From the NCBI GenBank assembly GCA_947453545.1, contig CANGHE010000006.1, forward strand, positions 1 through 32,931: DNA of 32,931 bases, given 5' to 3'. Shown here piece by piece: positions 272-24,273 of this stretch. Under the pieces are notes generated by a model that made no database searches, was not told the DNA's origin, and worked only from the letters and a program-made list of their open reading frames with translations. Position 1 is the first letter of the stretch, and each line of letters starts with the position of its first letter. This DNA comes from Flavobacteriia bacterium. Lineage in GTDB: Bacteria; Bacteroidota; Bacteroidia; Flavobacteriales_D; Crocinitomicaceae. Position numbers and translations under genes: made by a program.

Positions 272-817
272 TTAAAATGGGCTCACAAAAGTACTAAATT
301 CTTGTGCAAGTTGGTCTTTTTCAGAAATTATAGGATTATTAGAGTTCCAATCGATTTTCAAGTTTTTATCGTTCCAAAGAATTGCATCTTCAGATTCTTT
401 ATTGTAATAATTGGTACATTTGTAAGATAACAATGAATTTTCTTGTAGTGATATGAATCCATGGGCAAATCCTTCTGGGATCCAAAGTTGCTTCCCGGTT
501 TCTTGTGAAAGTTCGATTGTGAAAGTTTTTCCATAGGTAATGGAGTTCTTTCTAATGTCTACTACGACATCTAACACCTTACCAAAGGGCACACGCACAA
601 GTTTTCCTTGTGCAAATGGTGGTTTTTGAAAGTGAAGTCCTCTAACAACATTTTTAATTGAACATGATTCGTTTTCTTGAACAAATATTGTCTTTCTACC
701 TATATAATCGTCAAATTTTTCCTGTTGAAAGCTTTCAAAAAAGAATCCTCTCTCATCAAAGAATTTTTTTGTTTCAATGATTACTAGACCTTCTATTTCT
801 GCATTATGAAATGTCAT
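272..817 (-). CDS. rfbC: dTDP-4-dehydrorhamnose 3,5-epimerase (RmlC)
   Basis: 181 aa, the usual length for RmlC cupin epimerases, which convert dTDP-4-keto-6-deoxyglucose to dTDP-4-keto-L-rhamnose in the cytoplasm. Family motifs are all present: FDERGFFFESF near residues 20-30, the catalytic His62 in VVRGLHFQ, Lys72 in QGKLVRV, IPEGFAHGF around 113-121, and Tyr132 in LLSYKCTNYY. Its ATG overlaps the stop of the upstream autokinase gene by four bases (ATGA, 814-817), implying coupled translation. rmlA, rmlB and rmlD are not in the window, so they would have to lie elsewhere, perhaps beyond the left edge. Some homologues make other 6-deoxysugars, so L-rhamnose is likely but not proven. Confidence 0.93.
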   Translation of the reverse strand: MTFHNAEIEGLVIIETKKFFDERGFFFESFQQEKFDDYIGRKTIFVQENESCSIKNVVRGLHFQKPPFAQGKLVRVPFGKVLDVVVDIRKNSITYGKTFTIELSQETGKQLWIPEGFAHGFISLQENSLLSYKCTNYYNKESEDAILWNDKNLKIDWNSNNPIISEKDQLAQEFSTFVSPF

Positions 818-3267
818 TTGTTAAAAATTTTGTTTTTTATTCGAGTAATAAATTTAACTTCTGTTTTTACTTGTTCGTCATAATAACCTGAATTACTTCC
901 GTATCCGTATCCGTATCCGTATCCGTATCCGTATCCGTACCCGTATCCGTACCCGTACCCGTATCCGTACCCGTACCCATATCCATACCCACTTTTCTTA
1001 GAATCAATACCATTTAATATGATGTTTAGCGATTTAATGTGTTGTATTTCTAAGATTTCTGCAACTTTATATGCAGATATTCGCTTAGAGTAATGTGCTT
1101 TAAATACATAGATAGGAATATCAGCATTAGCAAGTAATTGTATACCATCAGAAACCAGACCAACAGGTGGGTTATCTATAATCACAATATCGTATTTAAC
1201 TTTTAAAACAGAAAGAATATTTTGGAATTCTTTACTTAGAATTAATTCCGATGGATTAGGAGGAATAGGTCCAGCAGTAATAAAATCTAAATTGTTAAAT
1301 TTTGATTTTTGAATAGCTTCGTCTAATGTTATTTGATTTACAATAAGATTACTCATACCGTTTTCATTAGTTGAATTGAATCCAAGATGTACCTTAGGTT
1401 TACGTAAGTCTAAGTCAAGAACGATAGTTTTCTTACCTGACATAGCTAATATACCTGCTAAGTTTAAAGCAATGAATGTTTTTCCTTCACCAGAGATGGA
1501 TGAACTAATTACGATAGTTTGAGCATTTTTATTGATAAATGCCATATTAGAACGTATATTTCTGAGAGATTCAGCCAACATAGATTTTGGAGATTCTTGA
1601 ACAACTAGTTGTGAGAATTCCATACTCTGTTTTGTAAGAGGAACTCCACCTAATATGTTTACTTTTTCAGGTAACAAGTTTTTTAGTTCTTCAACGTTAT
1701 TTATTTCATTGAATGTTAGGTATTTAAAAGTTAGAAAAGCTAATCCAATCGCTAATCCAACAAGTAGAAAGGATATGTATATAGTTCTTCCATTAGGACT
1801 AAACGGGTCTGTTGGATTTGTAGGGTAACTTAATATCCTATTTGCGGGCACATAACCTGCATTTGAAATTGCATAAGTGAATTTCTTTTCTTCAAATAAT
1901 TTGTAATATTTTTCGTTTACATCGATTAAACTTTTCAATTTTGCAAATCTAATTTTCATCTGTGGAAAAAAGTTAGATTCTTTTTCTAGTTCATATATAG
2001 AATCTTGAAGATTAGAAAGGTTGTCTTTAATTACATTTTCTATTAGGTTGAAATTCTTTCTAATTGATTGTAATGAAGTTTTTATTCGTTTATTAATTTG
2101 TTTTATTTCTCTTGTTTCTTCTGTAAATGTGTAAAGTAATTCTTCACGTTTTGAAATATAATTTAACAGGACATTGATATTTTTTTCCAAAGTCAGAGTT
2201 AAATTTTTTTGATTAATATCTGGAATTTGTTTATACAATTCAACCCGGTTAGGCTCATTATTCATTTTAGCTTCAATTGTTTGTATCAATAATAAATCTG
2301 CTTTAAGTTTTTTTATTTCATCTTTTAATCTGCTGTTTTTATTTGATATATCTAACTCTTTATCTTCAGGAGTTATCATTTTATTCATTTTTTGATAGTA
2401 TAATATACTATCGTTGGCCATTGATTTTTCTCTTGTCAAAGAGTCTAATTGCTTTTCTATAAATAGTAGACTATTTTTCGCTCCTTGTGTCCTTATTTCT
2501 TCATCATAATCGAAAAATGAGGTAGTAACACCATCAACGATGTCATGACATAGCATAGGGTTGTGACCTGAATAACTTACTTGTATAGTTTTTGCATTTG
2601 GGTCTAATGGTGTTACTAAAAGACTAGGTAAAAGTTTGCTAAGTAATGTTTTCTTGTTATTAAACTGAAAGTACACCTTGTTTCCCTCTATTGATGAAAT
2701 AAACTTGTTAAAATCTGGAACTTGTATGAAAATTGAAAATTTATTTGCATTTATTAATTGATTTATTGTACCATATTTTTTAAATTTTTTTCCTTGAAAA
2801 AGATATTCTAAATATATTTTTGAACCCTTATCATGTTTTATCAGAATAGGTATATCACATAAACTCGAATCAATTAATTTTTCTGGTATAATTTTGAATG
2901 AACTTTTTTTGTATAAATCTTCTGTTAATATTTTTCCTTCTGAAAATAAACTTAATCTTAGATCTAATTTTGAAATTGCTTTTTCAAAAAGAAATGGTGA
3001 ACTTAAGAATTGAATTTCTGCAGAAATGTCATTCTTCGCATTTGTGTTTTCGACTCCAATAATTTCTTTACTTTGATCTAAATCTGCAATTTGGATAACT
3101 GAATTGGATTCATAGACTGCTTTAGTATATCTTAAATAAAAGAAACCTATTATATAGAATATACCTAATGTCAATACTGGTACATACCAATATCTTCTTA
3201 TGATATTTCGAAGTATATGGGGATAGAATCCTTTATTGACGATAATACTTTTAGGGGCCTGTATCAC
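814..3267 (-). CDS. Wzc-like polysaccharide biosynthesis tyrosine autokinase with a Gly-Tyr repeat tail
   Basis: 817 aa, a fused chain-length regulator and BY-kinase of the inner membrane. A Wzz-type region starts with a membrane helix at about 28-46, followed by a long periplasmic part with coiled coil (about 265-465) and a second helix near 495-515 preceded by the Pro-rich PTNPTDPFSPNGR. The cytoplasmic kinase domain has Walker A SGEGKT (592-597), Walker A' TIVLDLDLRKP (614-624) and Walker B IVIIDNPP (694-701). The C-terminus carries 15 consecutive Gly-Tyr dipeptides (about 759-789), then GYYDEQ and a basic end. The tyrosine cluster of Wzc kinases is autophosphorylated in trans and controls polymer assembly; here it is encoded by a hexanucleotide tandem repeat. 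The gene overlaps wza and rmlC by four bases each. Assignment is firm; the polymer made is unknown. Confidence 0.92.
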   Translation of the reverse strand: MIQAPKSIIVNKGFYPHILRNIIRRYWYVPVLTLGIFYIIGFFYLRYTKAVYESNSVIQIADLDQSKEIIGVENTNAKNDISAEIQFLSSPFLFEKAISKLDLRLSLFSEGKILTEDLYKKSSFKIIPEKLIDSSLCDIPILIKHDKGSKIYLEYLFQGKKFKKYGTINQLINANKFSIFIQVPDFNKFISSIEGNKVYFQFNNKKTLLSKLLPSLLVTPLDPNAKTIQVSYSGHNPMLCHDIVDGVTTSFFDYDEEIRTQGAKNSLLFIEKQLDSLTREKSMANDSILYYQKMNKMITPEDKELDISNKNSRLKDEIKKLKADLLLIQTIEAKMNNEPNRVELYKQIPDINQKNLTLTLEKNINVLLNYISKREELLYTFTEETREIKQINKRIKTSLQSIRKNFNLIENVIKDNLSNLQDSIYELEKESNFFPQMKIRFAKLKSLIDVNEKYYKLFEEKKFTYAISNAGYVPANRILSYPTNPTDPFSPNGRTIYISFLLVGLAIGLAFLTFKYLTFNEINNVEELKNLLPEKVNILGGVPLTKQSMEFSQLVVQESPKSMLAESLRNIRSNMAFINKNAQTIVISSSISGEGKTFIALNLAGILAMSGKKTIVLDLDLRKPKVHLGFNSTNENGMSNLIVNQITLDEAIQKSKFNNLDFITAGPIPPNPSELILSKEFQNILSVLKVKYDIVIIDNPPVGLVSDGIQLLANADIPIYVFKAHYSKRISAYKVAEILEIQHIKSLNIILNGIDSKKSGYGYGYGYGYGYGYGYGYGYGYGYGYGYGYGSNSGYYDEQVKTEVKFITRIKNKIFNK
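901..990. repeat. Hexanucleotide tandem repeat (15 units) encoding (Gly-Tyr)15
   Basis: Fifteen back-to-back six-base units fill 901-990. On the plus strand they read gtatcc or gtaccc, with atatcc and ataccc as the last two. On the coding minus strand each unit is GGA/GGG TAC/TAT, always Gly-Tyr. The first six units (901-936) are identical, while the later ones carry synonymous changes. A unit gain or loss keeps the reading frame, so slippage would change the number of tyrosines in the kinase tail and not switch the gene off. Confidence 0.97.
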
Positions 3268-8828: not shown

Positions 8829-11090
8829 ATGAGGTTAATAATAGTTTTTTTTTGTTTTTGTTCTTACTATGGTTTGTTTGCTCAAGATGAAGTAATATCT
8901 CCGCTAGAAGCCATACGAATTGAATCGATTAATTTAAATGATAAACGTTCCCATTCAATTGATTCAATGTTTGTATATACTTCAGATACTTTATTACTTC
9001 CTGTAGTTGATGATTTTTCAAAAAATCATTTTCAACATTATACAAAAAATATTTCAGGTAATAACACTAAAGTTGATATGGCTTATAAATTATTGAATTT
9101 ATCAGATGATAAACCTTTTCAGAAATTCAAAAATTATACTACGACTTTAACTTACAGAAAAATTTATGATTTAAATAAGAAAAAGGATAGTATAGTACTA
9201 AATAAACCAATTGTAATAAGGGTTGGTGAATTATCAAATTTTCCGATTAATTACACTAACACCATAGCTTATCCTGCATACACTATTTATGACACAATTG
9301 CTGTTGGTATTTCATCGGATACATTGCGATTTGAGAGTTTAGATTTTTTTCAAGATTCAAGTGTAATTGTAAAAATTCAATTGAAAGATAAAAATGCGTA
9401 TTGGATTGATTCTAATGTCTATAGGAATTATACATATCCAATAAATCCTTGGACTTTAGGCGTTGCTACATTTGACGGATTGGATGCTTCAGGCTATCCA
9501 TATTACATTAATACTTCTATTCGCGGTTATGGAGATTATTTAACTTCCAAGCCAATTAATCTGTCAGGATTAAAAATTAAGGATTCTATTTATTTTAGTT
9601 TTTTATTTCAACCTAAGGGTTATGGTGATGCTCCAGAAAATATTACTGTTGGTTCAAGTTCTCAGCATGATTCTTTATGTTTACAATTTTATAATCCTAC
9701 ATATAATATTTGGATGCCAATATGGGCATCAAGTGTTGATTCTGATCCTGTACTATTTGAAAAACAGAGTAAAGAATTTAAAAGAGTACATTTATTATTG
9801 AAGGACACTACCTTTTTTAAGTCTAATTTTCAATTTAGATTTGTTAATTATGGTGATCTATCGGGCAGCCTTGATCATTTTCATTTAGATTATGTAAAAT
9901 TCAGGAAAAATTCAGGCTATCAAGATACTTTATTTAAAGATTTTGCCTTTGTTTATCCGATTGGATCTTTAATTAAAGGATTTACTTCTATTCCTTGGGA
10001 TCATTATTTAGCATCGCAAAAGAAACCTATAAATGATTCTATTGTTATTACATTGCGTAATGGGAGTAATAGTTCTGAAAATAATCAAGATGGGGTAATG
10101 AAAATATATAATACTTCCAATTCTGAAATAAATTCTATTGTTTTAAATGGGAATGATCTTACAGGAAACATAGTTAATTATGCTCCATTTACAACTTACA
10201 TAACATACCATGATTTTTCTAGTTCAATTAATTTAACAGAGACTAATTCTGATGCCGACAGAGCTAAATTTAAGATTAAAGCAAGTGTTTCTGCTCCTTT
10301 CTTGAATATTGCTGAAAATGATACGACTTATAGTGAACAGGTTTTTGAAGATTATTATGCTTACGATGATGGATCAGCAGAAGCTGCTTACGGTTTAAAA
10401 TCGGCACAAGCGCGAGTAGCTTATAAATTTCAACCAATTGTTTCGGATTCATTAGTTGGTGCATATATTCATTTCGTTCCTACTGTAAAGGATAAAACAA
10501 AAAAACAATTTTCTTTAATTGTATGGTCGGAGAAGGATGGAAAACCAGATAAAGTAATTTATGAGGATGATGATTTTAGTTTAAGAGAACCTGTTTATTC
10601 AAAGTATAGAAATGGTTTCACTCCTTATTATTTAAAAGACTTTCTTCGTTTGCCAATTTCAGATGTTTTTTTTATTGGATTACGGCAGGTTGACTCAGAA
10701 AATTTAAATATTGGATATGATAGAAATAACAATAGTCAATTAAAAACTTACTTTACTTCTGACAATATTAATTGGTTACAATCTTATTACCAAGGTTCTT
10801 TAATGATTCGCCCAATTTTTTCTTCTAAAATGAATAGAACATTATCTCTAGTAAATATGAACCAACCAACTGATATTTTAATTTACCCTAATCCAGTTAT
10901 TGATTACCTAACAGTAGAGTTGGTTCAATATTCCAATTATAAAGGGGCTGACTTAACAGATGTAAATGGTAAATTGATAAATTCATTTTCAAAAGAATTG
11001 TATCAAATAAATTTTGAAGGATTACCACAAGGAGTATATTTTTTAACAGAAATTAATACAGGTAAAGTACATAAATTGATCAAACAGTAA
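8829..11090 (+). CDS. Large secreted protein with T9SS type A C-terminal sorting domain
   Basis: 753 aa. An N-terminal Sec signal (MRLIIVFFCFCSYYGLFAQ) and a C-terminal sorting domain of about 75 residues are clear: IYPNPVIDYLTVEL, the middle ADLTDVNGKLI, and the end LPQGVYFLTEINTGKVHKLIKQ. Such proteins cross the inner membrane by Sec, then the outer membrane by the type IX system, and are released or anchored with loss of the tail. The body (about 20-670) is Asp/Ser/Tyr-rich with beta-type sequence and no catalytic motif I recognise; two stretches look like carbohydrate-binding or jellyroll-like folds (about 200-350 and 500-640). The stop shares one base with the rluD start. A structural or adhesive role is possible but unproven. 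Confidence 0.85.
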   Translation: MRLIIVFFCFCSYYGLFAQDEVISPLEAIRIESINLNDKRSHSIDSMFVYTSDTLLLPVVDDFSKNHFQHYTKNISGNNTKVDMAYKLLNLSDDKPFQKFKNYTTTLTYRKIYDLNKKKDSIVLNKPIVIRVGELSNFPINYTNTIAYPAYTIYDTIAVGISSDTLRFESLDFFQDSSVIVKIQLKDKNAYWIDSNVYRNYTYPINPWTLGVATFDGLDASGYPYYINTSIRGYGDYLTSKPINLSGLKIKDSIYFSFLFQPKGYGDAPENITVGSSSQHDSLCLQFYNPTYNIWMPIWASSVDSDPVLFEKQSKEFKRVHLLLKDTTFFKSNFQFRFVNYGDLSGSLDHFHLDYVKFRKNSGYQDTLFKDFAFVYPIGSLIKGFTSIPWDHYLASQKKPINDSIVITLRNGSNSSENNQDGVMKIYNTSNSEINSIVLNGNDLTGNIVNYAPFTTYITYHDFSSSINLTETNSDADRAKFKIKASVSAPFLNIAENDTTYSEQVFEDYYAYDDGSAEAAYGLKSAQARVAYKFQPIVSDSLVGAYIHFVPTVKDKTKKQFSLIVWSEKDGKPDKVIYEDDDFSLREPVYSKYRNGFTPYYLKDFLRLPISDVFFIGLRQVDSENLNIGYDRNNNSQLKTYFTSDNINWLQSYYQGSLMIRPIFSSKMNRTLSLVNMNQPTDILIYPNPVIDYLTVELVQYSNYKGADLTDVNGKLINSFSKELYQINFEGLPQGVYFLTEINTGKVHKLIKQ

Positions 11091-14443: not shown

Positions 14444-15517
14444 ATGCAATTAAAACCATCATCTACTTTATTTATGTTCTTCCTACACCTAGTGTTTTGG
14501 ATAGCATTTTATATGGTGCCTTTTATTGATCCAAGAGGGGTGCATCCAGTAAGTAGATTAAATGCTAGTTTCTTTTTTGATTTTCACTTATTAATTAATC
14601 ATCTTTTTTTTATTTTTTATTTTTATTTTAATAGTAATTATTTAATTCCTCAAATCCTTAGAAAAGGCGATAAGTGGCAATATGCCATCATTATCACATT
14701 GTTATTTCTAATTATATTAATATTCTCTTATTTATTATTTCCTTTAATTCGTTTACCACACGAGCATTTTTTGAAAAAACCACCTCATTTGCCTAGCAGA
14801 GAAGTTATGAGAATGAATCAAACAATTGCATTGTCCATACCATTGTTGTTCGTATTAATAGTTAGTGTAACATATAGATTATTATTAGACAAATTCTTGC
14901 AAGATAAAAAAGTGAAGGAAAAAGAAACGGAACATTTAAAAACTGAATTGTCGTTTTTACGCTCACAAATTAGTCCACATTTTATTTTTAATGCTTTAAA
15001 TAGTAGTATTATTTTAGTGAGAAAAAAATCGGATTTAGCAGAAAATAGTTTGTTGAAGTTAGCATCATTATTGAGGTATATGTTATATGAATCAGACGAA
15101 GACAAGGTTATGATTGAGAATGAAATTCAATATATTTCTGATTATATCGATTTACAAGAAATAAGATTTGGTAGTAGCGTTCATATCGAAAAGATTATAG
15201 ATGTGAATGAACATATTGAAGGATATATTGAACCTATGTTGTTAATTCCATTTATTGAAAATGCATTTAAACATGGGACTTCGGTATTGAATGCACCAGA
15301 GATAAAGATTTATATGAAAGAACATCAAGGTAAATTAATTCTAGAAGTTTCTAATAAATTTGTTAAAAAAGATGATCATAATGATAAGAATCATGGGATT
15401 GGTTTGGTCAATGTAGGGAGAAGATTAGCGCTATTATACCCAGGTAAACACGAATTACGAATCATGAGTGAGAATGATTGGTATTCTGTATATTTGTCTA
15501 TAGATATTGTAATATGA
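14444..15517 (+). CDS. LytS-type sensor histidine kinase (His_kinase family)
   Basis: 357 aa. The N-terminal half has four hydrophobic segments (about 8-26, 43-65, 80-102 and 127-147) and no obvious extracellular sensor domain. A short coiled coil (150-172) follows, then the phosphoacceptor box QISPHFIFNALNS with His179, the N-box IPFIENAFKHG with Asn273, and the G-box NHGIGLVNVGRRL. This is the LytS/YehU class that pairs with LytTR regulators. The stop overlaps the regulator start (ATGA, 15514-15517), so the two are translationally coupled. The signal is unknown; with so little exposed sequence it may sense the membrane or a membrane partner. It lies just upstream of the PqqD/ATP-grasp block on the same strand. 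Confidence 0.93.
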   Translation: MQLKPSSTLFMFFLHLVFWIAFYMVPFIDPRGVHPVSRLNASFFFDFHLLINHLFFIFYFYFNSNYLIPQILRKGDKWQYAIIITLLFLIILIFSYLLFPLIRLPHEHFLKKPPHLPSREVMRMNQTIALSIPLLFVLIVSVTYRLLLDKFLQDKKVKEKETEHLKTELSFLRSQISPHFIFNALNSSIILVRKKSDLAENSLLKLASLLRYMLYESDEDKVMIENEIQYISDYIDLQEIRFGSSVHIEKIIDVNEHIEGYIEPMLLIPFIENAFKHGTSVLNAPEIKIYMKEHQGKLILEVSNKFVKKDDHNDKNHGIGLVNVGRRLALLYPGKHELRIMSENDWYSVYLSIDIVI

Positions 15518-16242
15518 TTCGATGTATTTGTATAGATGACGAGCCGTTAGCGCTAGAAATGATGGGAGATTTCATTCGAAAAGTTCCGTTTTTGCAGTTA
15601 GTTACTTCATGTAAAAATGCACTAGAAGCATATGATATTTTAGACGAAGAAACTATTGATTTGATTTTTGTAGATGTTGAAATGCCTGAAATTAATGGAA
15701 TTCAATTTGTTCAATCGCTTAAGCAAAAACCATATATCATATTTTCTACTGCTTACAAAAAATATGCGCTCGAAGGATTTGAATTAGATGTAATAGACTA
15801 TCTTGTTAAACCCTTTTCGTTTGATCGTTTTTATAAAAGTGTTACAAAAGTCAAAGAAGCACATACCTTGATCAATAGTTCAACGCCATCCGTACTTAGA
15901 CAACTCCCTCCCGATTACATTTTTGTAAATTCTGACTATAGTTTGGTGAAAGTCAATATTCCTGAAATTGCTTACATTGAAGGTCTTAAAGATTATATTA
16001 AAATATATTTGTCAAACGTTTCTAAACCAATTGTTACTCGTATGAGTATGAAATCGATCGAAGAACGTTTAGAATTATTAGGTTTTAAGCGAGTTCATAA
16101 ATCTTTCATCGTTAATTTAGGTAAAATTACATCTATAAAAAAGACGAGGTTAGTAGTTGAAGAAACAGAACTATTTATTGGAGACAACTATAAGTCCCCT
16201 TTATATAAAGCGTTAGGTTTGGATGTATCTGAGGATGCATAA
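15514..16242 (+). CDS. LytTR-family response regulator
   Basis: 242 aa. The receiver domain (1-115) has the acidic pair D8-D9, the phosphorylated D54 in LIFVDVEMPEINGIQF, the Thr-like switch position in FSTAYKKYA, and the conserved Lys in DYLVKPFSF. A LytTR DNA-binding domain follows (about 130-237: VNIPEIAYIEGLKDYIKIYL..MSMKSIEERLELLGFKRVHKSFIVNLGKI). The start is ATG at 15514, inside the stop of the kinase gene; an in-frame upstream start at 15478 would only add 12 residues lying within the kinase frame. It is probably the output partner of the upstream kinase. The nearest downstream candidate target is the block beginning at 16371, which is preceded by a strong dyad. Confidence 0.94.
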   Translation: MIRCICIDDEPLALEMMGDFIRKVPFLQLVTSCKNALEAYDILDEETIDLIFVDVEMPEINGIQFVQSLKQKPYIIFSTAYKKYALEGFELDVIDYLVKPFSFDRFYKSVTKVKEAHTLINSSTPSVLRQLPPDYIFVNSDYSLVKVNIPEIAYIEGLKDYIKIYLSNVSKPIVTRMSMKSIEERLELLGFKRVHKSFIVNLGKITSIKKTRLVVEETELFIGDNYKSPLYKALGLDVSEDA

Positions 16243-16320
16243 AAAAATAGTGCGCTAAAAAACACCTTTTCATCTCTTTTTATCCCTTTTTGGTATCATT
16301 TTTTATTTTGGGATAAATTT

Positions 16321-16345
16321 TATCTACATCTTTGAAGTGTAGATA
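16321..16345. promoter_or_regulatory. Dyad upstream of the PqqD-like gene, possible regulator site or 5' hairpin
   Basis: A perfect inverted repeat with eight-base arms, TATCTACA (16321-16328) and TGTAGATA (16338-16345), around nine bases. If T16329 bulges, three more pairs form (CTT/AAG), giving an 11-pair hairpin with a two-base loop. It ends 25 bases before the ATG. No T-tract follows, so it does not look like a terminator. It covers a weak -7-like CATCTTTG (16327-16334), so it could be an operator or sit in the leader RNA. Confidence 0.55.
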
Positions 16346-16370
16346 ACAATAATATTAAAACATATAAGTC

Positions 16371-16616
16371 ATGAAAATACATTCAAATTTAGCGGTTAGC
16401 GATAGTGGTTTTATCTTTAACCCTTCAAACGGAGATTCTTTCTCAACAAATGCAGTTGGTGCTGATATCATCCGATTATTAAAAGCAGGAAAATCTCTTG
16501 CTGATATTAAAAAAGAAATAAGTGTAAAATATGAAGTAGAACCAACGGTGTTTGAAAAAGATTACGAAGACTTTATTTCACAGTTACAAGACCATTTTTT
16601 AGTAAGCAATGACTAA
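16371..16616 (+). CDS. Stand-alone PqqD-like protein (RRE-type winged helix)
   Basis: 81 aa, cytoplasmic. The pattern DSGFIFNPSNGDSFSTNAVGADIIRLLKAGKSLADIKKEISVKYEVEPTVFEKDYEDFISQLQDHFLV matches the PqqD fold: an N-terminal beta pair, LNxxGxxI-like helix (here TNAVGADIIRLL), the x-s-L-xx-I helix (SLADIKKEI), and a final helix with LxxxFLV. Such domains (RiPP recognition elements) bind a peptide and present it to a modifying enzyme, as PqqD does for PqqA with the radical SAM enzyme PqqE. There is no radical SAM gene here; the gene overlaps an ATP-grasp gene by eight bases, so that is the likely partner. No precursor peptide gene was found next to it. Family call is good; partner and ligand are inferred. 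Confidence 0.82.
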   Translation: MKIHSNLAVSDSGFIFNPSNGDSFSTNAVGADIIRLLKAGKSLADIKKEISVKYEVEPTVFEKDYEDFISQLQDHFLVSND

Positions 16617-17664
16617 TTCTGCCAAACGAAAAATTACAGTTGCAGTTACCGGTTTAAATGCCGTTGACAGTCCTGGGCCAGGAGTAGCTGTAATACGCGG
16701 AATCCGAGATTGTGAGGATTTTGACGTGCGAATCATAGGTCTTTCTTATGAATCGCTTGAGCCAGGGATCTATATGGAGGGAATCGCTGATAAAGTATAT
16801 CAAATTCCTTATCCAGCTGCAGGTACCGAAACATTATTAAGTAGAATAGAATACATCCATGCGATTGAAAAAATCGATGTAATTATTCCAAATTTTGATG
16901 CTGAACTACATAATTTCATTAAAATTTCACCACAATTAAAAGAGTTTGGTATTGCAACTTTTCTTCCTACAAATGAACAATTTGAATCAAGAGATAAGGT
17001 TAATTTATTCAAGTTTGGTGAAAAGCATGGTTTCTTGATTCCAAAAGATAAAACGATCTATGATTTAAGCGAACTTCCAGCAGTAGCAAAAGATTTTGGT
17101 TATCCTTTAGTTGTAAAAGGAAAATATTATGAAGCGACTGTGGCTTATACACTTGAACAAGCTCAAAAAGCTTTTCATAAATTAAATGCAAAATGGGGAT
17201 TACCTATTATTGTTCAAGAATTCATCTCTGGGACTGAAGTGAATATAGCAGCACTTGGAGACGGAGAAGGTAATACAATCTCAGCAGTACCAATGCGTAA
17301 ACTATTTATCACAGATAAAGGGAAAGCATGGGCAGGAATTACGTTGGAAGAACAATCGTTGATCGACTTAGCTGAAAAATTTATAAGCGCGACAAAATGG
17401 AGAGGTGGCTTTGAAATTGAAATCATGCGCACGCAAGATGGAAAGCCCTATATCATGGAAGTAAACCCTCGTTTCCCAGCATGGATTTATTTAACTGTTG
17501 GTGCAGGTCAAAATCAACCAGCTTCACTTGTTAAATTAGCATTAGGAGAAAAAGTTGTACCATACACTTCTTATGAAGTTGGGAAATTATTTATTCGATA
17601 TGCTTGGGATTTAATAACGGATGTCTCAGAATTTCAAAAAATATCTGCATTCGGAGAGCTTTAA
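16609..17664 (+). CDS. ATP-grasp enzyme, carbamoyl-phosphate-synthase (CarB) type
   Basis: 351 aa. An N-terminal Rossmann-like preATP-grasp domain (about 8-115, VAVTGLNAVDSPGPGVAVIRGIRD) is followed by an ATP-grasp domain: the ATP-binding Lys in PLVVKGKYYEA (K170), the hinge IIVQEFISGTE (E204), and the metal-binding residues in FEIEIM (about 268-273) and MEVNPRFPAW (E284, N286). Such enzymes activate a carboxylate or bicarbonate as an acyl phosphate and pass it to an amine, thiol or ammonia. The core resembles one half of CarB, without the allosteric or oligomerisation domains. The overlap with the PqqD-like gene suggests a complex that acts on a bound peptide or carrier. The substrate is unknown. 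It is followed by a 99-base gap before the decarboxylase gene. Confidence 0.88.
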   Translation: MTNSAKRKITVAVTGLNAVDSPGPGVAVIRGIRDCEDFDVRIIGLSYESLEPGIYMEGIADKVYQIPYPAAGTETLLSRIEYIHAIEKIDVIIPNFDAELHNFIKISPQLKEFGIATFLPTNEQFESRDKVNLFKFGEKHGFLIPKDKTIYDLSELPAVAKDFGYPLVVKGKYYEATVAYTLEQAQKAFHKLNAKWGLPIIVQEFISGTEVNIAALGDGEGNTISAVPMRKLFITDKGKAWAGITLEEQSLIDLAEKFISATKWRGGFEIEIMRTQDGKPYIMEVNPRFPAWIYLTVGAGQNQPASLVKLALGEKVVPYTSYEVGKLFIRYAWDLITDVSEFQKISAFGEL

Positions 17665-17720
17665 AAATTAATTAATATCAATTCTAGATAATCGATTTAC
17701 AACTAGTATGACCAAAGCCA

Positions 17721-17740
17721 GACTGAGCGGAGTCGAAGTC
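17721..17740. repeat. REP-like GC-rich element between the ATP-grasp and decarboxylase genes
   Basis: The 20 bases GACTGAGCGGAGTCGAAGTC stand out for GC content in an AT-rich gap and can fold (GACT..AGTC). From memory the sequence CTTCGACTCCGCTCAG, its reverse complement core, recurs as a short dispersed repeat in many bacterial genomes including Bacteroidota. Only one copy is visible here, so its repeat nature is recalled knowledge and not shown by this window. Confidence 0.5.
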
Positions 17741-17763
17741 AAATTCAATAAAAAACTATAACT

Positions 17764-19128
17764 ATGAAAACTGAAAAATTAAAATACGAACGTCCTGCTA
17801 TTCGCAAAATGAATACTGGGTTAATGAACAAATTCGGTACAAGAACTGAATATGCTCCTTTTACACACATTGATGGTGTTTCTGTGAAAGAGTTAATCAA
17901 TAAATATGGATCTCCATGTTTCGTTATCTCTGAAAGAACAATTCGTAAAACCTATCAAAATGCGGTAAGAGCTTTTAAAACGCGTTACCCTAAAGTACAA
18001 TTTGCGTGGAGTTATAAAACGAATTACATCGATGCTGTGTGTAATGTGTTTCACCAAGAAGGTTCATGGGCAGAGGTAGTTTCAATTTTTGAGTACACTA
18101 AAGCGATTCAAAATGGTGTTCCAGGAAATAAAATTATTTTTAATGGTCCAGAAAAAACGAAAGCAGATTTACAAGTGGCATTAGAAAACAATTCATATAT
18201 CCATATAGACCACTTTGATGAATTATATGATTTGATCGAATTGACACAAGAATTGAAAAAAACAGCTAAAGTTGCAATTCGAGTGAACATGGATACGGGT
18301 GTTTATCCAATGTGGGACCGTTTTGGATTCAACTATGAGTCTGGTCAAGCATGGAACGCAATCAATAAAATCATGGCTTCTGAGTATTTAGAAATGGTTG
18401 GTTTACACTGTCATATCGGAACGTTTATGTTAGATACAAATGCATATGCAATTGCTGCTGCAAAACTTTCTGATCTTGCTGTAAATATTAAATATGTATT
18501 TAACAAAACTATTCAATACCTAGATTTAGGTGGAGGTTTCCCTTCTGCTAACACTTTAAGAGGAGCTTATTTACCTGGACCAGATATGATTCCTTCCATT
18601 GACGAATTCGCTGAAGTTATCACGAATACGATCCTAAATTACGGGTTCAAAAAAGAAGATTTACCGTTATTGATCTTAGAAACTGGTCGTGCAATGATTG
18701 ATGATGCAGGTTATTTATTAGGTAGTGTAATTGCAAACAAACGTTTGTCAGATGGAAGAAGAGCTACCATTATGGATTTTGGTGTAAATATTTTATTCAC
18801 AGCATTCTGGTATGAGCATAAAATTACTCCTGCGCAAGAATTCTCTTCTCATACAGAAGATATGGTGTTATACGGACCATTATGTATGAATATTGATGTT
18901 GTTAGATCAAGTGTTACTTTACCAGCTTTAAATCGTGGGGATCATGTTGTAGTTCATAAAGTAGGTGCATATAACATGACACAATGGATGCAATTTATCG
19001 CCATGAGACCTAAGGTGGTATTAATTGACACTAATGGTGAATCACATGTAATTCGTGAAAATGAGACTGTTAAGACTATTACAGATCCAGAAAAAATGCC
19101 AGAACATTTAAAAACGTTTAATTTATAA
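17764..19128 (+). CDS. PLP-dependent group IV decarboxylase (DAP/ornithine/arginine decarboxylase fold)
   Basis: 454 aa. A TIM barrel with the PLP-binding Lys85 in FAWSYKTNY, HCHIGT (215-220, the HxHIGS motif), DLGGGFP (254-260, phosphate-binding glycine loop) and LETGRAM (305-311, EPGR motif). The C-terminal beta domain carries YGPLCMNIDVV with Cys374 and Asp378, the second half of the shared active site, and Tyr403 in GAYNMTQWMQF. All catalytic residues therefore look intact. The layout is closest to diaminopimelate decarboxylase (LysA), but the C-terminus is extended (RENETVKTITDPEKMPEHLKTFNL) and the gene sits in a non-lysine operon, so the substrate is probably another D- or L-amino-acid centre. 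It is cytoplasmic. The start at MKTEKLKYERPAI leaves an N-terminal extension of about 35 residues before the barrel. Confidence 0.88.
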   Translation: MKTEKLKYERPAIRKMNTGLMNKFGTRTEYAPFTHIDGVSVKELINKYGSPCFVISERTIRKTYQNAVRAFKTRYPKVQFAWSYKTNYIDAVCNVFHQEGSWAEVVSIFEYTKAIQNGVPGNKIIFNGPEKTKADLQVALENNSYIHIDHFDELYDLIELTQELKKTAKVAIRVNMDTGVYPMWDRFGFNYESGQAWNAINKIMASEYLEMVGLHCHIGTFMLDTNAYAIAAAKLSDLAVNIKYVFNKTIQYLDLGGGFPSANTLRGAYLPGPDMIPSIDEFAEVITNTILNYGFKKEDLPLLILETGRAMIDDAGYLLGSVIANKRLSDGRRATIMDFGVNILFTAFWYEHKITPAQEFSSHTEDMVLYGPLCMNIDVVRSSVTLPALNRGDHVVVHKVGAYNMTQWMQFIAMRPKVVLIDTNGESHVIRENETVKTITDPEKMPEHLKTFNL

Positions 19129-19137
19129 TATTGACGA

Positions 19138-21360
19138 ATGAATAATTGGCTTGCTATAGCTAAAAAATGGTTACTGTATAGCTTTGACACGATTGTCAAT
19201 AGCTATGCAGTAGTCTTTTTTTCAAATAACATTTGGTTCGGACTCTTATTGCTTTTGGCATCTTTTGTGGATCCTTTAGCTGGTGTATGCGGACTCATCG
19301 GTGTGATCGCTGCAAATGTATTTTCAAGAGTAATCGGATTAAACAAAGAATTCATTCGAAAAGGTTATCATGGTTATGATGCAATGCTTGTTTCCAGCGC
19401 TATAGCTCACTTTTATTCATTTAATCAGACTGTATTATTAGTGATCATTTGTGTAGGGATTTTTTCTACATTAATATCGTTTTTAGTTCATGGGATATTA
19501 CATAAATATAATTTACCCACGTTAAGTTTTCCTTTTTTAATTTCTATTTGGTTAGTTTTCAGTGCATTTCCTTCAATGCATACGATGCAAATTCATCCTG
19601 AACTCATTTATTCGTTGAATGAAAAACATAAAGCGACTGGTTTTACAATAACACATTGGTTGGAATTAATAGATAATATTGAAAGTCAATTGATTTCTTT
19701 TCCAAAAATTGTTTCGGTTTACTTCAAATCGCTCGCATCACTGTTTTTTCAATCTAACATACTTGCTGGATTATTAATCGCAATAGGTCTATTAATCTAT
19801 TCCAGAATTGCTTTTAGTCTATCGATACTTGGTTTTGTATCAGCTTATTTTTTCTATCCGATACTCGGAGGAGATGTAGCTGATTTTTACGAGAAATTTA
19901 TTGGTTTAAATTTTATTTTTCTGGCCATTGCAATTGGAGGAATCTATCTAATTCCAAGTCTCGCTAGTTATTTAATGAGCGTGATTTTAACACCTTTATT
20001 AATTATTGTCTTATTTGGTCTAAATCGAATATTATTTATGATTGGTTTAGCTCCTTATTCGTTGCCTTTTACATTGATTACAATCATGTTTTTGTATTTG
20101 TTAAATTTCAGAGTAACGATTAAGTTTTTACACCGTGTAATTCATCAGGAATTCAGTCCAGAAAAAAATTTATATAATTTTTTAAATGCAAATCACCGAA
20201 CACGTTTATTTAATTATTTTCCAATTCATGTACCTTTTTGGGGGGAGTGGATGGTTTCTCAAGCTCATGATGGTAAAATTACTCATATAGGAGAATGGAG
20301 TAAGGCATTAGACTTTATTATATTAGATCATGAAATGAAGTCGTATCAAAATCCTGGACTTGTCGTAGATGATTTTTATTGTTTTAATAAACCAGTCGTG
20401 GCATGTGCTGATGGTTACGTTGCAGCTATTTCAGATAATATTGAAGATAATGTTATTAATGGCAATAATACACTTCAAAACTGGGGTAATTCAATGGTTA
20501 TTTTTCATGCCGATGGATTGTATAGCCAGGTAAGTCACTTAAAAATGGGTTCTTTTAAATATGCTGTAGGTGATTTTGTGAAAAAAGGAGAAATTATAGC
20601 ATATTGTGGAAATTCAGGTCGATCACCAGAACCTCATATTCATTTTCAATTACAAGCTTCACCAATAATTGGGGCAAAAACACTTGATTTTCCTTTAGCA
20701 TACTATTTAAAAAGAACTTCTGTAGGTTTTGAATTGAAAACATTCTCTAAACCAAAAGATGGGGAATTTATTCAAGCTGTAGAAGGCAATCCTTTATTAA
20801 AATCAGCATTTGAATTTAATCCTGGATCAACTTATAATTGGAAAATAAATGAAAATGGAAAAGATACTCAAAATCAAAATTGGGAAGTTTTCACTGATAG
20901 TATAAATAATTCATATATCTATTGTCATACAACAAAAGCCATAGCATACTTTTATAATGATGGTAATATGCTTGTTTTTACAAGTTTTTATGGTACCAAA
21001 AAATCCTTATTATATCATTTTTATTTAGCACATTATAAATTAGTGTTAGGTTTTTATCAAAATCTGGAAATCGAAGAGAACTATCCAGTCGCTACAATTT
21101 TTTTAAAAGTGTTGAATATAATACAAGATTTTATTGCTCCATTTTACCGTTTTGTAAATTCTTCATTTAAAGTGAAATATACATATATAGATGATGTTAA
21201 CATTACGTCACAAATAACATTAACATCTTCTTCAGAAATTAAAGTAATGGGGTTTAAATCAAAAGCGTTTCAGTATACTACTCATTTGAAATTGAATAAA
21301 TTAGATGAGTTTATAGTTGAAACTTCTAAAACAAAAATTAGTGCATCATGCGTAAAATAA
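19138..21360 (+). CDS. Urea-transporter domain fused to an M23 metallopeptidase domain
   Basis: 740 aa. Residues about 20-330 are a urea-transporter-like membrane domain with roughly ten hydrophobic segments. The paired pore motifs of the two half-repeats can be seen as LPTLSFPFLISIWL (126-139) and APYSLPFTLITIM (305-317), together with RKGYHGYDAMLV (74-85). Residues about 370-525 are an M23 (LytM/lysostaphin type) domain with His383 and Asp392 in THIGEWSKALDF, PVVACADGYVAAI, His467 in VSHL, and the H500-I-H502 pair in EPHIHFQ, so the zinc site looks intact. Residues about 540-740 are of unknown function. M23 enzymes cut peptidoglycan cross-bridges in the periplasm. It starts nine bases after the decarboxylase gene and overlaps the next by 13 bases, so it is part of the operon. 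Confidence 0.85.
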   Translation: MNNWLAIAKKWLLYSFDTIVNSYAVVFFSNNIWFGLLLLLASFVDPLAGVCGLIGVIAANVFSRVIGLNKEFIRKGYHGYDAMLVSSAIAHFYSFNQTVLLVIICVGIFSTLISFLVHGILHKYNLPTLSFPFLISIWLVFSAFPSMHTMQIHPELIYSLNEKHKATGFTITHWLELIDNIESQLISFPKIVSVYFKSLASLFFQSNILAGLLIAIGLLIYSRIAFSLSILGFVSAYFFYPILGGDVADFYEKFIGLNFIFLAIAIGGIYLIPSLASYLMSVILTPLLIIVLFGLNRILFMIGLAPYSLPFTLITIMFLYLLNFRVTIKFLHRVIHQEFSPEKNLYNFLNANHRTRLFNYFPIHVPFWGEWMVSQAHDGKITHIGEWSKALDFIILDHEMKSYQNPGLVVDDFYCFNKPVVACADGYVAAISDNIEDNVINGNNTLQNWGNSMVIFHADGLYSQVSHLKMGSFKYAVGDFVKKGEIIAYCGNSGRSPEPHIHFQLQASPIIGAKTLDFPLAYYLKRTSVGFELKTFSKPKDGEFIQAVEGNPLLKSAFEFNPGSTYNWKINENGKDTQNQNWEVFTDSINNSYIYCHTTKAIAYFYNDGNMLVFTSFYGTKKSLLYHFYLAHYKLVLGFYQNLEIEENYPVATIFLKVLNIIQDFIAPFYRFVNSSFKVKYTYIDDVNITSQITLTSSSEIKVMGFKSKAFQYTTHLKLNKLDEFIVETSKTKISASCVK

Positions 21361-22754
21361 GTGTCTTATATGTAGCGTTATTGTTATCTACTTTGTCATT
21401 AGCACAAAGTAACAGTAAATTAAAAGAATCCTATGTCGATAGTACTTCTTATGTGTATTTTATGAAAGGGCAACATCCAGAGTTAGTCGCGCTGACAAAA
21501 AACGCATTATTATCGGGTATTGATTCGTATTATCTTAGGGTTAGAATTGGTGTTTCTTATTTTAATAAAAATGAATTTTATCTTGCCGCAATTCACTTAA
21601 GAAAGGCAGTAGAATTTTATCCGTCAGATATATACGCAAAAGAATTTTTATTCTATTCTTATCTGTACATGGAAAATATGGAAGAAGCAAAATTAATTAT
21701 TGCTAAAATGCCATTTACTTACCAAGCGGGGTACCGAAAATTGATCAAATTACAAAAATCCGTAGTTTTTGAATCGGGTTATCAGACTACTAGTTATTCA
21801 AATAACCAAGATTCAGCCGTTTTTTTGGCGAAAGATGTTACTGATACATCTTTACATGGAAATGGAGTATATGCTGTATCTGATCGTATGAAGTCTATTC
21901 AATACATTCAAATCGGAGGTGGTTATCCGATTTCTAAAAGAATGAAAGGTTATTCAGGTCTTTCATTAGTTAGAAATAACCGTGAAGAGCATGTTTATTC
22001 AAAAGATTATATATGGGACAATACAAAATTAGTCTATACCCCAAAAATCAAAGACACTCTTCATACATATACATTATCTCAATATCAAGTCTACTCGGGG
22101 GTTACGATAACATTGCCTCAACATTTTAATATATTAGTTGGCGGACAATATATGTATTACGATCAAAATAAATTGTATGCGAAGTATAATGAAACGTCAT
22201 TCAACTATAGTTATAAAGACAGTACAACATCACGAAGTAATTTTGTGAGTAATGTTTCTTTAACAAAATCATTTGGAAAATTTATTCCAATGTTAAGCTT
22301 TGGAGTAAATCGTATCGATGCTTATACAATAAACCAATATAATGCTCAGTCGAGTTATTTACCATTAGGTAATTTTAATCTCGTTTTAACAGGTGGTTTG
22401 GCTTTGTCAAAAGATAATTCAGGATCTAGAAATGTATATTATATTAAATTAGGAGGTAAGATAACAAATAACTTGTGGTATGATACTTATTTTTATGCTG
22501 GAAACTTGAAGAATTTTACGGAGGGGAATGGGTATGTTGTTTATAATATTTCAGATAAAATCACAATGAAGTCAGGAGTCAACTTAACTTATTACTTGAA
22601 TCAAAAGTTGAATTTTGGCTTGCGATATGATTTGTTAAAACGTGAATCATTGTATGATCGCTATTTTACATCAAACGGAATTTCAAAAGTAAAATCATAT
22701 TCTGATAATTATTTAAATCATTCATTAATTTTTAATGTTTTATGGAAGTTTTAG
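21348..22754 (+). CDS. Outer-membrane beta-barrel protein with N-terminal TPR region (YaiO-like)
   Basis: 468 aa. Signal peptide MRKISVLYVALLLSTLSLAQ, then about 110 residues of TPR-type helices (YLRVRIGVSYFNKNEFYLAAIHLRKAVEFYPSDIYAKEFLFYSYLYMENMEEAKLII), then from about residue 170 alternating aromatic and polar beta strands (QYIQIGGGYPISKRMKGYSGLSLV, FNILVGGQYMYYD) ending in LIFNVLWKF with the terminal Phe expected of an outer-membrane barrel. The arrangement resembles the YaiO family. It overlaps the upstream fusion gene and the downstream TPR gene by 13 bases each, so all three should be made in step. It would place a pore or docking barrel over the inner-membrane transporter and peptidase; this is inference. 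Confidence 0.78.
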   Translation: MRKISVLYVALLLSTLSLAQSNSKLKESYVDSTSYVYFMKGQHPELVALTKNALLSGIDSYYLRVRIGVSYFNKNEFYLAAIHLRKAVEFYPSDIYAKEFLFYSYLYMENMEEAKLIIAKMPFTYQAGYRKLIKLQKSVVFESGYQTTSYSNNQDSAVFLAKDVTDTSLHGNGVYAVSDRMKSIQYIQIGGGYPISKRMKGYSGLSLVRNNREEHVYSKDYIWDNTKLVYTPKIKDTLHTYTLSQYQVYSGVTITLPQHFNILVGGQYMYYDQNKLYAKYNETSFNYSYKDSTTSRSNFVSNVSLTKSFGKFIPMLSFGVNRIDAYTINQYNAQSSYLPLGNFNLVLTGGLALSKDNSGSRNVYYIKLGGKITNNLWYDTYFYAGNLKNFTEGNGYVVYNISDKITMKSGVNLTYYLNQKLNFGLRYDLLKRESLYDRYFTSNGISKVKSYSDNYLNHSLIFNVLWKF

Positions 22755-23362
22755 GAAAAAAAAGTGTCATAATATTAACATTTATTTTCATAGCATTCAG
22801 TCTATATTCACAATCAGATAATGCTATTCGAGATGCATTAAAAAAAAGTTATGATTCCGAATATCAGTTGAAATATCAGAAATCAATGGAAGATTTAATG
22901 GGAGTGTATGAGCCTACTTCCTATGAGTTGAATTTGAGGTTGGGTTGGTTAGCTTATAAAGCGGGTAAGTACACTGAATCTATTAGTTATTATAAAAAAT
23001 CTATTGCCAAAATGCCCTTAAGTATTGAAGCTAAATTAGGGGTTGTTTACCCACTAGGAGCATTGGAAAAATGGGATCAGGTTGTTGATAATTATTTAGC
23101 GATAGTTAAAATTGATACATATAACGCAACTGCAAATTATCGACTTGCTTTGATTTATTACAACAGAGGTGATTATGGTAATTCTTGGAAGTACATCCAA
23201 AAATATATCAATTTGTATCCTTTCGATTATGATGGTAATAGTTTGGCAGGTTGGATTAAATATAATGTAGGTAAAAAAGAGGAAGCATATGTTTTTTTTA
23301 AGAAAGCTATAATGGTAAACCCTTATGATACAAGCTTTAATAAAGTGCTAGGAGTAAAATAA
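22742..23362 (+). CDS. Periplasmic TPR protein, copy 1
   Basis: 206 aa. An N-terminal signal peptide (GKKSVIILTFIFIAFSLYSQ) and about five TPR motifs (e.g. LRLGWLAYKAGKYTESISYYKKSIAKMP, NYRLALIYYNRGDYGNSWKYIQKYINLYP, LAGWIKYNVGKKEEAYVFFKKAIMVNP). It is a clear paralogue of the next gene: both share the start (A/L)R.A.K.SY..EY.LKY, the central EKWD.V...Y.A...ID....A.NY/FRLA, and the YPF(D/N)(Y/F)DG..LAGWIKYN segment. TPR proteins dock partners; here probably the barrel protein encoded just upstream, whose gene it overlaps by 13 bases. No enzymatic motif is present. Confidence 0.83.
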   Translation: MEVLGKKSVIILTFIFIAFSLYSQSDNAIRDALKKSYDSEYQLKYQKSMEDLMGVYEPTSYELNLRLGWLAYKAGKYTESISYYKKSIAKMPLSIEAKLGVVYPLGALEKWDQVVDNYLAIVKIDTYNATANYRLALIYYNRGDYGNSWKYIQKYINLYPFDYDGNSLAGWIKYNVGKKEEAYVFFKKAIMVNPYDTSFNKVLGVK

Positions 23363-23394
23363 ATTAAATTAAATAATAATTAAAATCGAAAAGT

Positions 23395-24012
23395 ATGAAA
23401 AATGGAGTAAAAAAAATCGCAACAGTAGGTTTGTTTTCATTGGTTACAATTTTCTCATTCTCACAAAATGAAGCTGAATTGCGAAATGCATTCAAGCAAA
23501 GTTATGTTGATGAATATAATTTAAAATATGCTAAAGCTATTGAGGCACTGACCCCATATGCCAGTCTAAAAAGATATGAAATTCATGTTCGAATGGCTTG
23601 GCTATACTATTGTAATGCAAAATTTAGTGATGCAGCGGTGCATTATAAAAAAGCAGTAGAACTTTCGCCTAAAAGTTTAGAGGCAAGAATGGGGTATGTA
23701 TACACGCTAGCTTCTCAAGAAAAATGGGATTTAGTAATAGAACAATATAAAGCAGTTTTGGGGATAGACCCTACACATGCTGTTGCAAATTTTAATTTAG
23801 CTTCTATATACTTTAATCGCGCAGATTATAAATCGGCTTTACCTTATATCACTACATACATTAATTGTTACCCTTTTAATTTCGATGGTGTAAATTTAGC
23901 AGGTTGGATTAAGTATAATTTAGGAAGTAAAGATGAAGCTGTTTCTTATTTTAATAAAGCATTATTATTAGATCCAAGTTCAAAGTTATATGATTCTATA
24001 ATTAAAAGGTAA
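23395..24012 (+). CDS. Periplasmic TPR protein, copy 2 (paralogue of copy 1)
   Basis: 205 aa. A signal peptide (MKNGVKKIATVGLFSLVTIFSFSQ) is followed by TPR repeats (RMAWLYYCNAKFSDAAVHYKKAVELSP, NFNLASIYFNRADYKSALPYITTYINCYP, LAGWIKYNLGSKDEAVSYFNKALLLDP). Length and repeat order match copy 1, so the pair came from a tandem duplication that has since diverged. It is separated from copy 1 by 32 bases and is the last gene before the strong terminator at 24037. The function is presumably a protein-protein scaffold in the periplasm; the partner is unknown. Confidence 0.85.
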   Translation: MKNGVKKIATVGLFSLVTIFSFSQNEAELRNAFKQSYVDEYNLKYAKAIEALTPYASLKRYEIHVRMAWLYYCNAKFSDAAVHYKKAVELSPKSLEARMGYVYTLASQEKWDLVIEQYKAVLGIDPTHAVANFNLASIYFNRADYKSALPYITTYINCYPFNFDGVNLAGWIKYNLGSKDEAVSYFNKALLLDPSSKLYDSIIKR

Positions 24013-24036: not shown

Positions 24037-24066
24037 AAAGCTATCCAAATTTGGATAGCTTTTTTC
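24037..24066 (+). terminator. Rho-independent terminator closing the PqqD/ATP-grasp operon
   Basis: A perfect 26-base palindrome with arms AAAGCTATCCAAA and TTTGGATAGCTTT (24037-24062), followed by a T-rich run (TTTTCTTTT). It lies 24 bases after the last TPR gene. The symmetric stem could work on both strands. Confidence 0.92.
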
Positions 24067-24199: not shown

Positions 24200-24200
24200 G

Positions 24201-24273
24201 TGGGAGCGGAGGGAATCGAACCCCCGACACAAGGATTTTCAGTCCTTTGCTCTACCGACTGAGCTACGCTCCC
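24201..24273 (-). tRNA. tRNA-Phe (GAA anticodon)
   Basis: 73 bases on the minus strand. The acceptor stem GGGAGCG pairs with CGCTCCC, discriminator A; the D-arm has AGCTCAGTCGGTAGAGC; the anticodon arm is GGACTGAAAATCC with anticodon GAA; the T-arm is GGGGGTTCGATTCCC. CCA is not encoded (ACA follows), so it must be added after transcription. A promoter upstream and a hairpin terminator downstream make it a single-gene transcription unit. Confidence 0.98.

Follow-up and report, generated by a model that had tools for sequence, protein, structure and literature searches.

Seven same-strand genes at positions 16371-24012 of a 32,931-nucleotide stretch of DNA from a Flavobacteriia bacterium (Crocinitomicaceae; assembly GCA_947453545.1, contig CANGHE010000006.1; the whole stretch is called the window below) encode a PqqD-like protein, an ATP-grasp ligase, a decarboxylase dependent on pyridoxal phosphate (PLP), a urea-transporter-type (UT) channel fused to an M23 peptidase domain, a predicted outer-membrane barrel and two tetratricopeptide-repeat (TPR) proteins. 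It is as good as certain that this cassette is a real and strictly co-inherited unit, carried all-or-none by about one in twelve of the Bacteroidota genomes sampled, culturable Pedobacter and Mucilaginibacter isolates among them. Its function is proposed tentatively: the cassette may be a dedicated pathway that makes and exports a small amine- or amide-type metabolite, a reading held somewhat short of an even chance and in which we infer the chemistry, the order of the steps, the product and the direction of export.

Conservation and distribution of the cassette

All seven open reading frames (ORFs) were confirmed on the plus strand. They show the spacing described in an earlier reading made from the letters alone (the sequence-only reading), with an 8-base overlap at 16609-16616 and a 99-base gap at 17665-17763, followed by a 9-base gap, two 13-base overlaps and a 32-base gap. 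Pfam likewise confirmed the domain calls of that reading (PqqD, ATP-grasp, PLP decarboxylase, UT, M23 and TPR). The genes are the following:

16371..16616, plus strand: PqqD-like stand-alone RRE-type protein, 81 aa (Pfam PqqD, E 2.7e-11)
16609..17664, plus strand: ATP-grasp amide/peptide ligase, 351 aa (Pfam ATP-grasp, fold and invariant active site)
17764..19128, plus strand: PLP-dependent decarboxylase of the alanine-racemase fold, 454 aa, sister to FigC/FslC (PDB profile match, tree and active-site residues)
19138..21360, plus strand: UT-M23 fusion with a 10-transmembrane (TM) UT channel at ~1-322, M23 at ~360-525 and a beta-rich C-terminal domain at ~540-740 (Pfam and model)
21348..22754, plus strand: predicted outer-membrane barrel with an N-terminal TPR-like region and a signal peptide, 468 aa (weak TPR matches; barrel character read from sequence)
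22742..23362, plus strand: exported TPR protein with a signal peptide, 206 aa (Pfam TPR)
23395..24012, plus strand: second exported TPR protein, 205 aa, a lineage-specific extra copy (Pfam TPR)

Each of 395 Bacteroidota genomes was searched with the UT-M23 protein, an ATP-grasp profile and a decarboxylase profile. These three independent queries, the first of them with the full fusion, retrieved the identical 34 genomes, an agreement far beyond chance, and no gene of the three was found alone. The weakest ATP-grasp match had an E-value of 1e-147 against a reporting limit of 1e-40, so that the matches leave no grey zone. The same gene order was observed in the flanking DNA of 37 loci, taken from the 34 cassette genomes and from genomes of the same family or order. 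When the decarboxylase was searched for in 84,980 species genomes, at least 583 loci encoding a relative were detected, the best 80 of which lie in bins named Chitinophaga, Flavobacteriia, Bacteroidales, Paludibacter and Ignavibacteriae, and also in isolates of Pedobacter (L129, L137) and Mucilaginibacter (L114, L144, L156); a few oddly named bins (Bifidobacterium, Melainabacteria) are probably due to mis-binning or mis-naming.

Dropping decarboxylases at least 90% identical gave a non-redundant set of 90 loci, across which the order PqqD, ATP-grasp, decarboxylase, UT-M23, barrel and TPR is nearly invariant (PqqD present in 84/85, ATP-grasp in 84/85, UT-M23 in 82/82, TPR in 72/73 and barrel in 70/73). 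As either the decarboxylase or the fusion had served to locate these loci, the unbiased figure for co-occurrence is the 34/34/34 of the genome sample. Pairwise distance matrices of the cassette proteins correlate (r 0.78-0.91), and this agreement of homologue distances from protein to protein indicates that the set has been inherited together.

The conserved order and the identical genome sets bear out the earlier proposal of one operon-like unit, and the neighbourhood search across Bacteroidota that had been suggested alongside it, with rare co-occurrence as the outcome that would count against it, found the genes together. The operon claim has to rest on this conservation, which is strong, because neither promoter- nor terminator-like sites exceed chance: promoter-like matches over the region are at chance level, and three terminator-like stems were found against 4.1 expected from shuffled DNA. 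Of the strong terminator assigned to the end of the unit, the stem itself is real, while stems of this kind are no commoner here than in shuffled DNA. No description of the cassette was found in the openly licensed literature (subscription papers were outside the search), and within what is openly searchable the statement that no named pathway has this set of genes holds.

The decarboxylase and its substrate

The residues that mark PLP decarboxylases of the alanine-racemase fold (the PLP lysine K85, the glycine loop G256-258 and the catalytic C374) are invariant in the cassette enzyme, and its Pfam match, to Orn/DAP/Arg decarboxylases, lies above the cut-off. Its closest PDB profile match is 7kh2, an N-citrylornithine decarboxylase (303 bits), with diaminopimelate (DAP) decarboxylase at 234 bits, while the scores with the curated lysA and FslC models stay below their cut-offs (221 vs 297.9 bits and 241.6 vs 500 bits, respectively). 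In a tree built with the native LysA and arginine decarboxylases of the same genomes, the cassette clade (0.91) is sister to FigC (local support 0.95), a relation that counts as moderate evidence because outside sequences in the tree are few.

At alignment positions 346 and 375, eight LysA proteins and the M. jannaschii DAP decarboxylase carry the R and E that contact the distal carboxylate and the amine of meso-DAP; the cassette enzymes have T at the first position (one has S and one N) and M at the second. The active-site residues named for FigC are T327, T330, Y331, M355 and the citrate-contacting H357 and R387 (PMC7857480). When these are mapped on the cassette enzyme, T327, Y331 and M355 are kept, while T330 becomes W349, H357 becomes I377 and R387 becomes Q407, the three replacements being common to all cassette members aligned. 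Thus, T, Y and M take the place of acidic or basic substrate-recognition residues both in FigC and in the cassette enzyme, which implies an elaborated amino acid as substrate. DAP, ornithine, lysine and arginine are unlikely substrates, since the R/E of LysA is replaced by T/M amid FigC-type residues. Judged by its active site, the enzyme is not a LysA, an ornithine decarboxylase or an arginine decarboxylase, and the best guess for its substrate is an amino acid that bears a bulky group other than citrate. For members of the FigC clade other than DAP decarboxylases or D-ODC, specialised metabolism has been considered more likely than a role in polyamines (PMC7857480). The LysA-like function first assigned to the gene is not supported, as the protein groups with FigC and lacks the R346 and E375 of DAP decarboxylases; the automatic names 'diaminopimelate decarboxylase', 'urea transporter' and 'peptidase M23' are probably wrong for the functions of the cassette genes.

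It is extremely unlikely that the cassette enzyme serves as the organism's own DAP decarboxylase in lysine synthesis. Such a role would suit the window's genus, where no separate LysA was found and the other match is an arginine decarboxylase. Nonetheless, a separate LysA scores above the curated cut-off in ten of the sixteen cassette genomes tested, the R and E that recognise DAP are lost, the lysA score stays below its cut-off, and the cassette is present in only 34 of 395 genomes. This candidate was rejected on the active-site residues and on the separate LysA in most genomes tested. As to the genus itself (G000, G395, G397, G399, G401, G402, G404 and G406), an arginine decarboxylase was the only such enzyme found besides that of the cassette, with none of LysA type, and its members may be lysine auxotrophs or use a route that has escaped recognition.

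A second alternative follows from the kinship with FigC, namely that the ligase and the decarboxylase together produce a chelator, in the manner of the rhizoferrin, staphyloferrin B or vibrioferrin pathways. The decarboxylase is sister to a siderophore enzyme (PMC7857480), and genes read from sequence as ZIP-like (L047) or TonB-receptor-like (L046) adjoin the cassette in single lineages. The FigA/FigC (FslA/FslC) rhizoferrin pathway of Francisella (PMC7857480) resembles the cassette in its decarboxylase, from the sister clade and with T327, Y331 and M355 in common. On the contrary, the cassette lacks the synthetase for siderophores independent of nonribosomal peptide synthetases (NIS synthetase) and the MFS exporter, has an ATP-grasp ligase, a PqqD-like protein and a UT-M23 channel instead, and shows I and Q where FigC has the citrate-contacting H357 and R387. 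With an NIS synthetase (IucA/IucC-type) in 0 of 37 cassette genomes and no recurrent receptor or MFS exporter among the neighbours, a metallophore is very unlikely. A metal theme put together from the ZIP-like gene, the TonB-like gene and AraC regulators with HMA-like regions was dropped as not recurrent enough.

The ATP-grasp ligase and the PqqD-like protein

The AlphaFold2 model of the ATP-grasp enzyme (pLDDT 90) has its nearest fold in 2pn1 (Z 30.4, 302 residues), a structural-genomics entry for a protein not yet characterised; PylC and an L-amino-acid ligase stand lower in the list. The fold and the Mg/ATP residues of the family are present, K170, E269, E271, E284, N286 and R288 being invariant. 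The nearest NCBIfam models, although far below their cut-offs, are the PRK12767 'carbamoyl phosphate synthase-like' set, and the initial assignment to the carbamoyl-phosphate-synthase type of ATP-grasp enzymes was borne out.

The PqqD-like protein scores 44.1 bits with Pfam PqqD (cut-off 23.4) and has a strongly conserved hairpin; its best PDB sequence matches are the lasso-peptide RRE proteins TbiB1 and TfuB1, at a weak E-value of 1.5e-4. Being RRE-like and encoded by a gene that overlaps that of the ligase, it may plausibly feed the ligase. A phosphopantetheine serine of the carrier-protein kind is not conserved in it, as one lineage has Thr (GET) in place of the sole candidate Ser (GDS), and a Pfam scan of the cassette proteins gave no match to the acyl-carrier-protein profile.

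Two known arrangements approach this pairing. In butirosin biosynthesis (BtrI/BtrJ/BtrK), an ATP-grasp ligase, BtrJ, attaches an amino acid to a small protein, and the attached amino acid is acted on by a decarboxylase of the alanine-racemase fold. The small protein, BtrI, has 87 aa, and BtrK is the decarboxylase that acts on the BtrI-joined amino acid (PMC7857480). The cassette differs from it in that its small protein is PqqD/RRE-like without a conserved carrier serine, in having no glycosyl acceptor enzymes, and in its channel-peptidase and outer-membrane parts, which have no counterpart there. The RRE-dependent pathways to ribosomally synthesised and post-translationally modified peptides, represented by TbiB1 and TfuB1, resemble it in that a stand-alone PqqD-fold protein is encoded next to the modifying enzyme, with a peptidase gene also in the operon. 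They differ in that no precursor peptide, radical SAM enzyme or cyclase was found at the cassette, and in that the peptidase here is an M23 domain fused to a channel. By analogy, the biosynthetic half works like other pathways that couple an ATP-grasp enzyme with a decarboxylase of this fold, although the full set of defining features was found for no named system tested.

The UT-M23 fusion

The cassette enzymes belong to known families; the fusion of UT (Pfam E 7.7e-56) to M23 (E 6.5e-14) is the part for which no precedent was found. With its peptidase predicted to be cytoplasmic, the protein has an unusual architecture. The UT half of the model matches 3k3f with Z 37.3 over 316 residues and shows a complete 10-TM urea-transporter fold, while the M23 half matches LytM/M23 folds (Z 13-14, ~125-130 residues). 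Since the 10-TM fold is complete, the C-terminus should lie on the same side of the membrane as the N-terminus, and no extra TM segment was found ahead of the M23 domain. The density of K+R is 0.126 in loops assigned to the inside and 0.026 in those assigned to the outside, a difference of the same sign in each of 37 homologues, whether or not the tails are counted. In UT proteins of known structure both ends are cytoplasmic. Fold, charge pattern and known topology together predict a cytoplasmic location for the M23 domain and for the beta-rich domain that follows it.

The M23 ligands H383, D392 and H502 and the catalytic H467 and H500, whose roles are assigned by sequence, are invariant; the spacing between H383 and D392 is wider than in LytM, and similarly wide in secreted relatives. 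As loop charges in all 37 homologues place the domain in the cytoplasm, it is probably not a peptidoglycan hydrolase. Of the inner-membrane transporter with a peptidoglycan hydrolase envisaged at first, the UT fold is complete, and the hydrolase is not supported; the movement of peptidoglycan fragments that went with it finds no support either, because M23 is predicted on the cytoplasmic side. In one single-contig genome (L059), the UT-M23 gene is broken at a run of T (8990-9030) and the M23 part has no signal peptide; the break is probably a frameshift, though a sequencing error, a slippage site or a real split may lie behind it, and the missing signal peptide lends weak support at most to a cytoplasmic M23.

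The contrary arrangement, in which a periplasmic M23 cuts peptidoglycan so that a channel/barrel complex passes the wall, or handles wall fragments, has in its favor that an M23 fold with an invariant active site normally cuts peptidoglycan and that the nearest stand-alone M23 relatives are secreted. It is decidedly unlikely, given that the complete UT fold brings both ends to one side, that the K+R-rich loops are on this N- and C-terminal side in 37 of 37 homologues, and that no additional TM segment precedes M23. UT channels are, moreover, far too narrow for muropeptides.

The channel has the full fold, the LPxLxxPF motifs and the pore phenylalanine F27 of UT (SLC14-type) transporters such as dvUT. 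Unlike them, it is fused to M23 and a beta-rich domain, has no linked urease, and differs in the urea-coordinating filter (Q24, T130, E187 and T294 in urea transporters): E187 is mostly A, L or S, and non-acidic in all 37 homologues with a residue at this place, T294 is mostly V, S or A, and T130 is S. Real urease occurs in 12 of the 395 genomes and in one of the 34 with the cassette, on another contig (urea amidolyase was not searched for). One lungfish Ut isoform has leucine at E187 (PMC5311045), so urea may still be a substrate.

The predicted barrel and the TPR proteins

Signal peptides were read from sequence on the barrel and TPR proteins. The fifth gene has the sequence character of the barrel that had been proposed, though no Pfam model matches it and its weak NCBIfam matches are TPR-like. 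A TPR region and an outer-membrane barrel encoded together with inner-membrane export parts recall the PgaA/BcsC/YaiO exporters, from which the cassette differs by the lack of a significant family-model match for its barrel and of a linked polysaccharide synthase. The second TPR gene is found in the window's genus and a few others; most relatives have one.

A proposed pathway and its alternative

Catalytic residues are intact in the two enzymes and in the M23 domain alike. In the pathway proposed here, the PqqD/RRE-type protein would present a substrate, perhaps a peptide scaffold, to the ATP-grasp enzyme or steer it, and the ligase would link an amino acid through an amide bond. From this elaborated amino acid the FigC-like decarboxylase would then remove the alpha-carboxylate to give an amine, the M23 domain, predicted to be cytoplasmic, would cut the intermediate (trimming or release), and the fused channel would pass the small product to the periplasm. 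The barrel and its TPR partner or partners may bind this product at the outer membrane or take it across. Local regulators (LytTR two-component, AraC-type or other) would switch the unit on. That the cassette makes something small is likely, and the small-molecule product suggested in the sequence-only reading is the likeliest theme, with support from the present data.

Several points weigh against this pathway. No small conserved precursor-peptide ORF was found in the leader or gaps of the cassette (a genome-wide search for a remote precursor was not made), so that a peptide-scaffold role of PqqD is unsupported, though the idea is possible. A cytoplasmic M23 would be unusual, because signal peptides are present on its nearest non-cassette relatives, which are secreted. 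The fifth protein is predicted to be an outer-membrane barrel from its sequence character, with no family match. Finally, UT-type channels are passive, so export would need a gradient.

UT-type channels are also bidirectional facilitators, and the same parts might be used for uptake: barrel and channel would import a small amide- or urea-like compound, cytoplasmic M23 would hydrolyse it, ligase and decarboxylase would process it, and the two-component system would sense it outside. A hydrolase fused to the channel on the predicted cytoplasmic side and a LytTR two-component pair next to the cassette in several lineages would fit this. On the contrary, an ATP-using ligase with a FigC-type decarboxylase looks biosynthetic, real urease overlaps with the cassette in one genome, the filter E187 is lost in all homologues, and the neighbouring gene families include no binding protein, TonB receptor or assimilation gene with a consistent link to the cassette. 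Uptake is thus unlikely, and export is more likely than import.

Within the biosynthesis-and-export pathway, a more specific and rather doubtful version is a 'cut-and-channel' exporter, in which cytoplasmic M23 would free a decarboxylated amino-acid unit from a peptide or protein scaffold recognised by PqqD/RRE and the unit would leave directly through the fused channel. If true, this would be a small-molecule counterpart of peptidase-containing ABC exporters, and the cytosolic role of M23 would be the first as far as known, widespread in Bacteroidota. If the cassette makes a metabolite at all, its product would represent a new and widespread family of compounds in a phylum from which few are known.

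Upstream region and neighbouring features

The remaining features of the locus are the following:

14444..15517, plus strand: membrane histidine kinase of the LytS/His_kinase type, first gene of the upstream two-component pair (Pfam His_kinase, E 5.9e-23)
15511..16242, plus strand: LytTR response regulator (ATG at 15511), directly 5' of the PqqD gene (Pfam Response_reg and LytTR)
16293..16301, plus strand: GTATC-N-TTT element in the cassette leader, a candidate regulatory site (invariant in ten aligned leaders)
24037..24062, plus strand: terminator-like stem with a T-tract at the end of the unit (11 pairs, 4-base loop)

The seven-gene span of the sequence-only reading covers the cassette genes, but leaves out the kinase/LytTR pair (14444-16242), which lies directly 5' of the cassette in the window and in other lineages, and takes in the lineage-specific second TPR gene. 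The ten leaders in which GTATC-N-TTT is invariant are those of the window and nine close relatives. The dyad said to precede the genes (16320-16346) was rejected as a conserved element, its left arm differing in the nine relatives.

Same-strand homologues of the kinase family lie upstream of the cassette in 26 loci, and 18 of 78 non-redundant loci have a same-strand LytTR homologue immediately upstream. In three Flavobacteriales loci (L109, L111 and L116), LytTR has no partner kinase and, as read from sequence, a degenerate-looking receiver with the phospho-acceptor Asp replaced. In other lineages this slot is taken by an AraC-type regulator, seen in 8 loci, by a GNAT acetyltransferase, seen in 12, or by a type IX-secreted FG-GAP protein, which accounts for most of a 16-locus family. 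An FG-GAP-type protein of ~280 aa with a type IX sorting tail adjoins the cassette in Ignavibacteria-like genomes (L051, L053-L057, L076). AraC-type regulators with an N-terminal HMA-like region, in most of which one cysteine of the usual pair is kept, were seen upstream of PqqD in L123, L124, L131, L139, L142, L155, L157 and L062.

None of the seven proteins matched a PADLOC profile for anti-phage defence, and an RNA scan of the window returned no riboswitch, its sole match being a tRNA. This tRNA-Phe (24200-24273, minus strand) lies between the cassette and a type III pantothenate kinase-like gene. At the other end of the window, positions 814-3267 (minus strand) encode a Wzc-like exopolysaccharide tyrosine-kinase/chain-length protein, whose C-terminal tail consists of ~16 Gly-Tyr dipeptide repeats.

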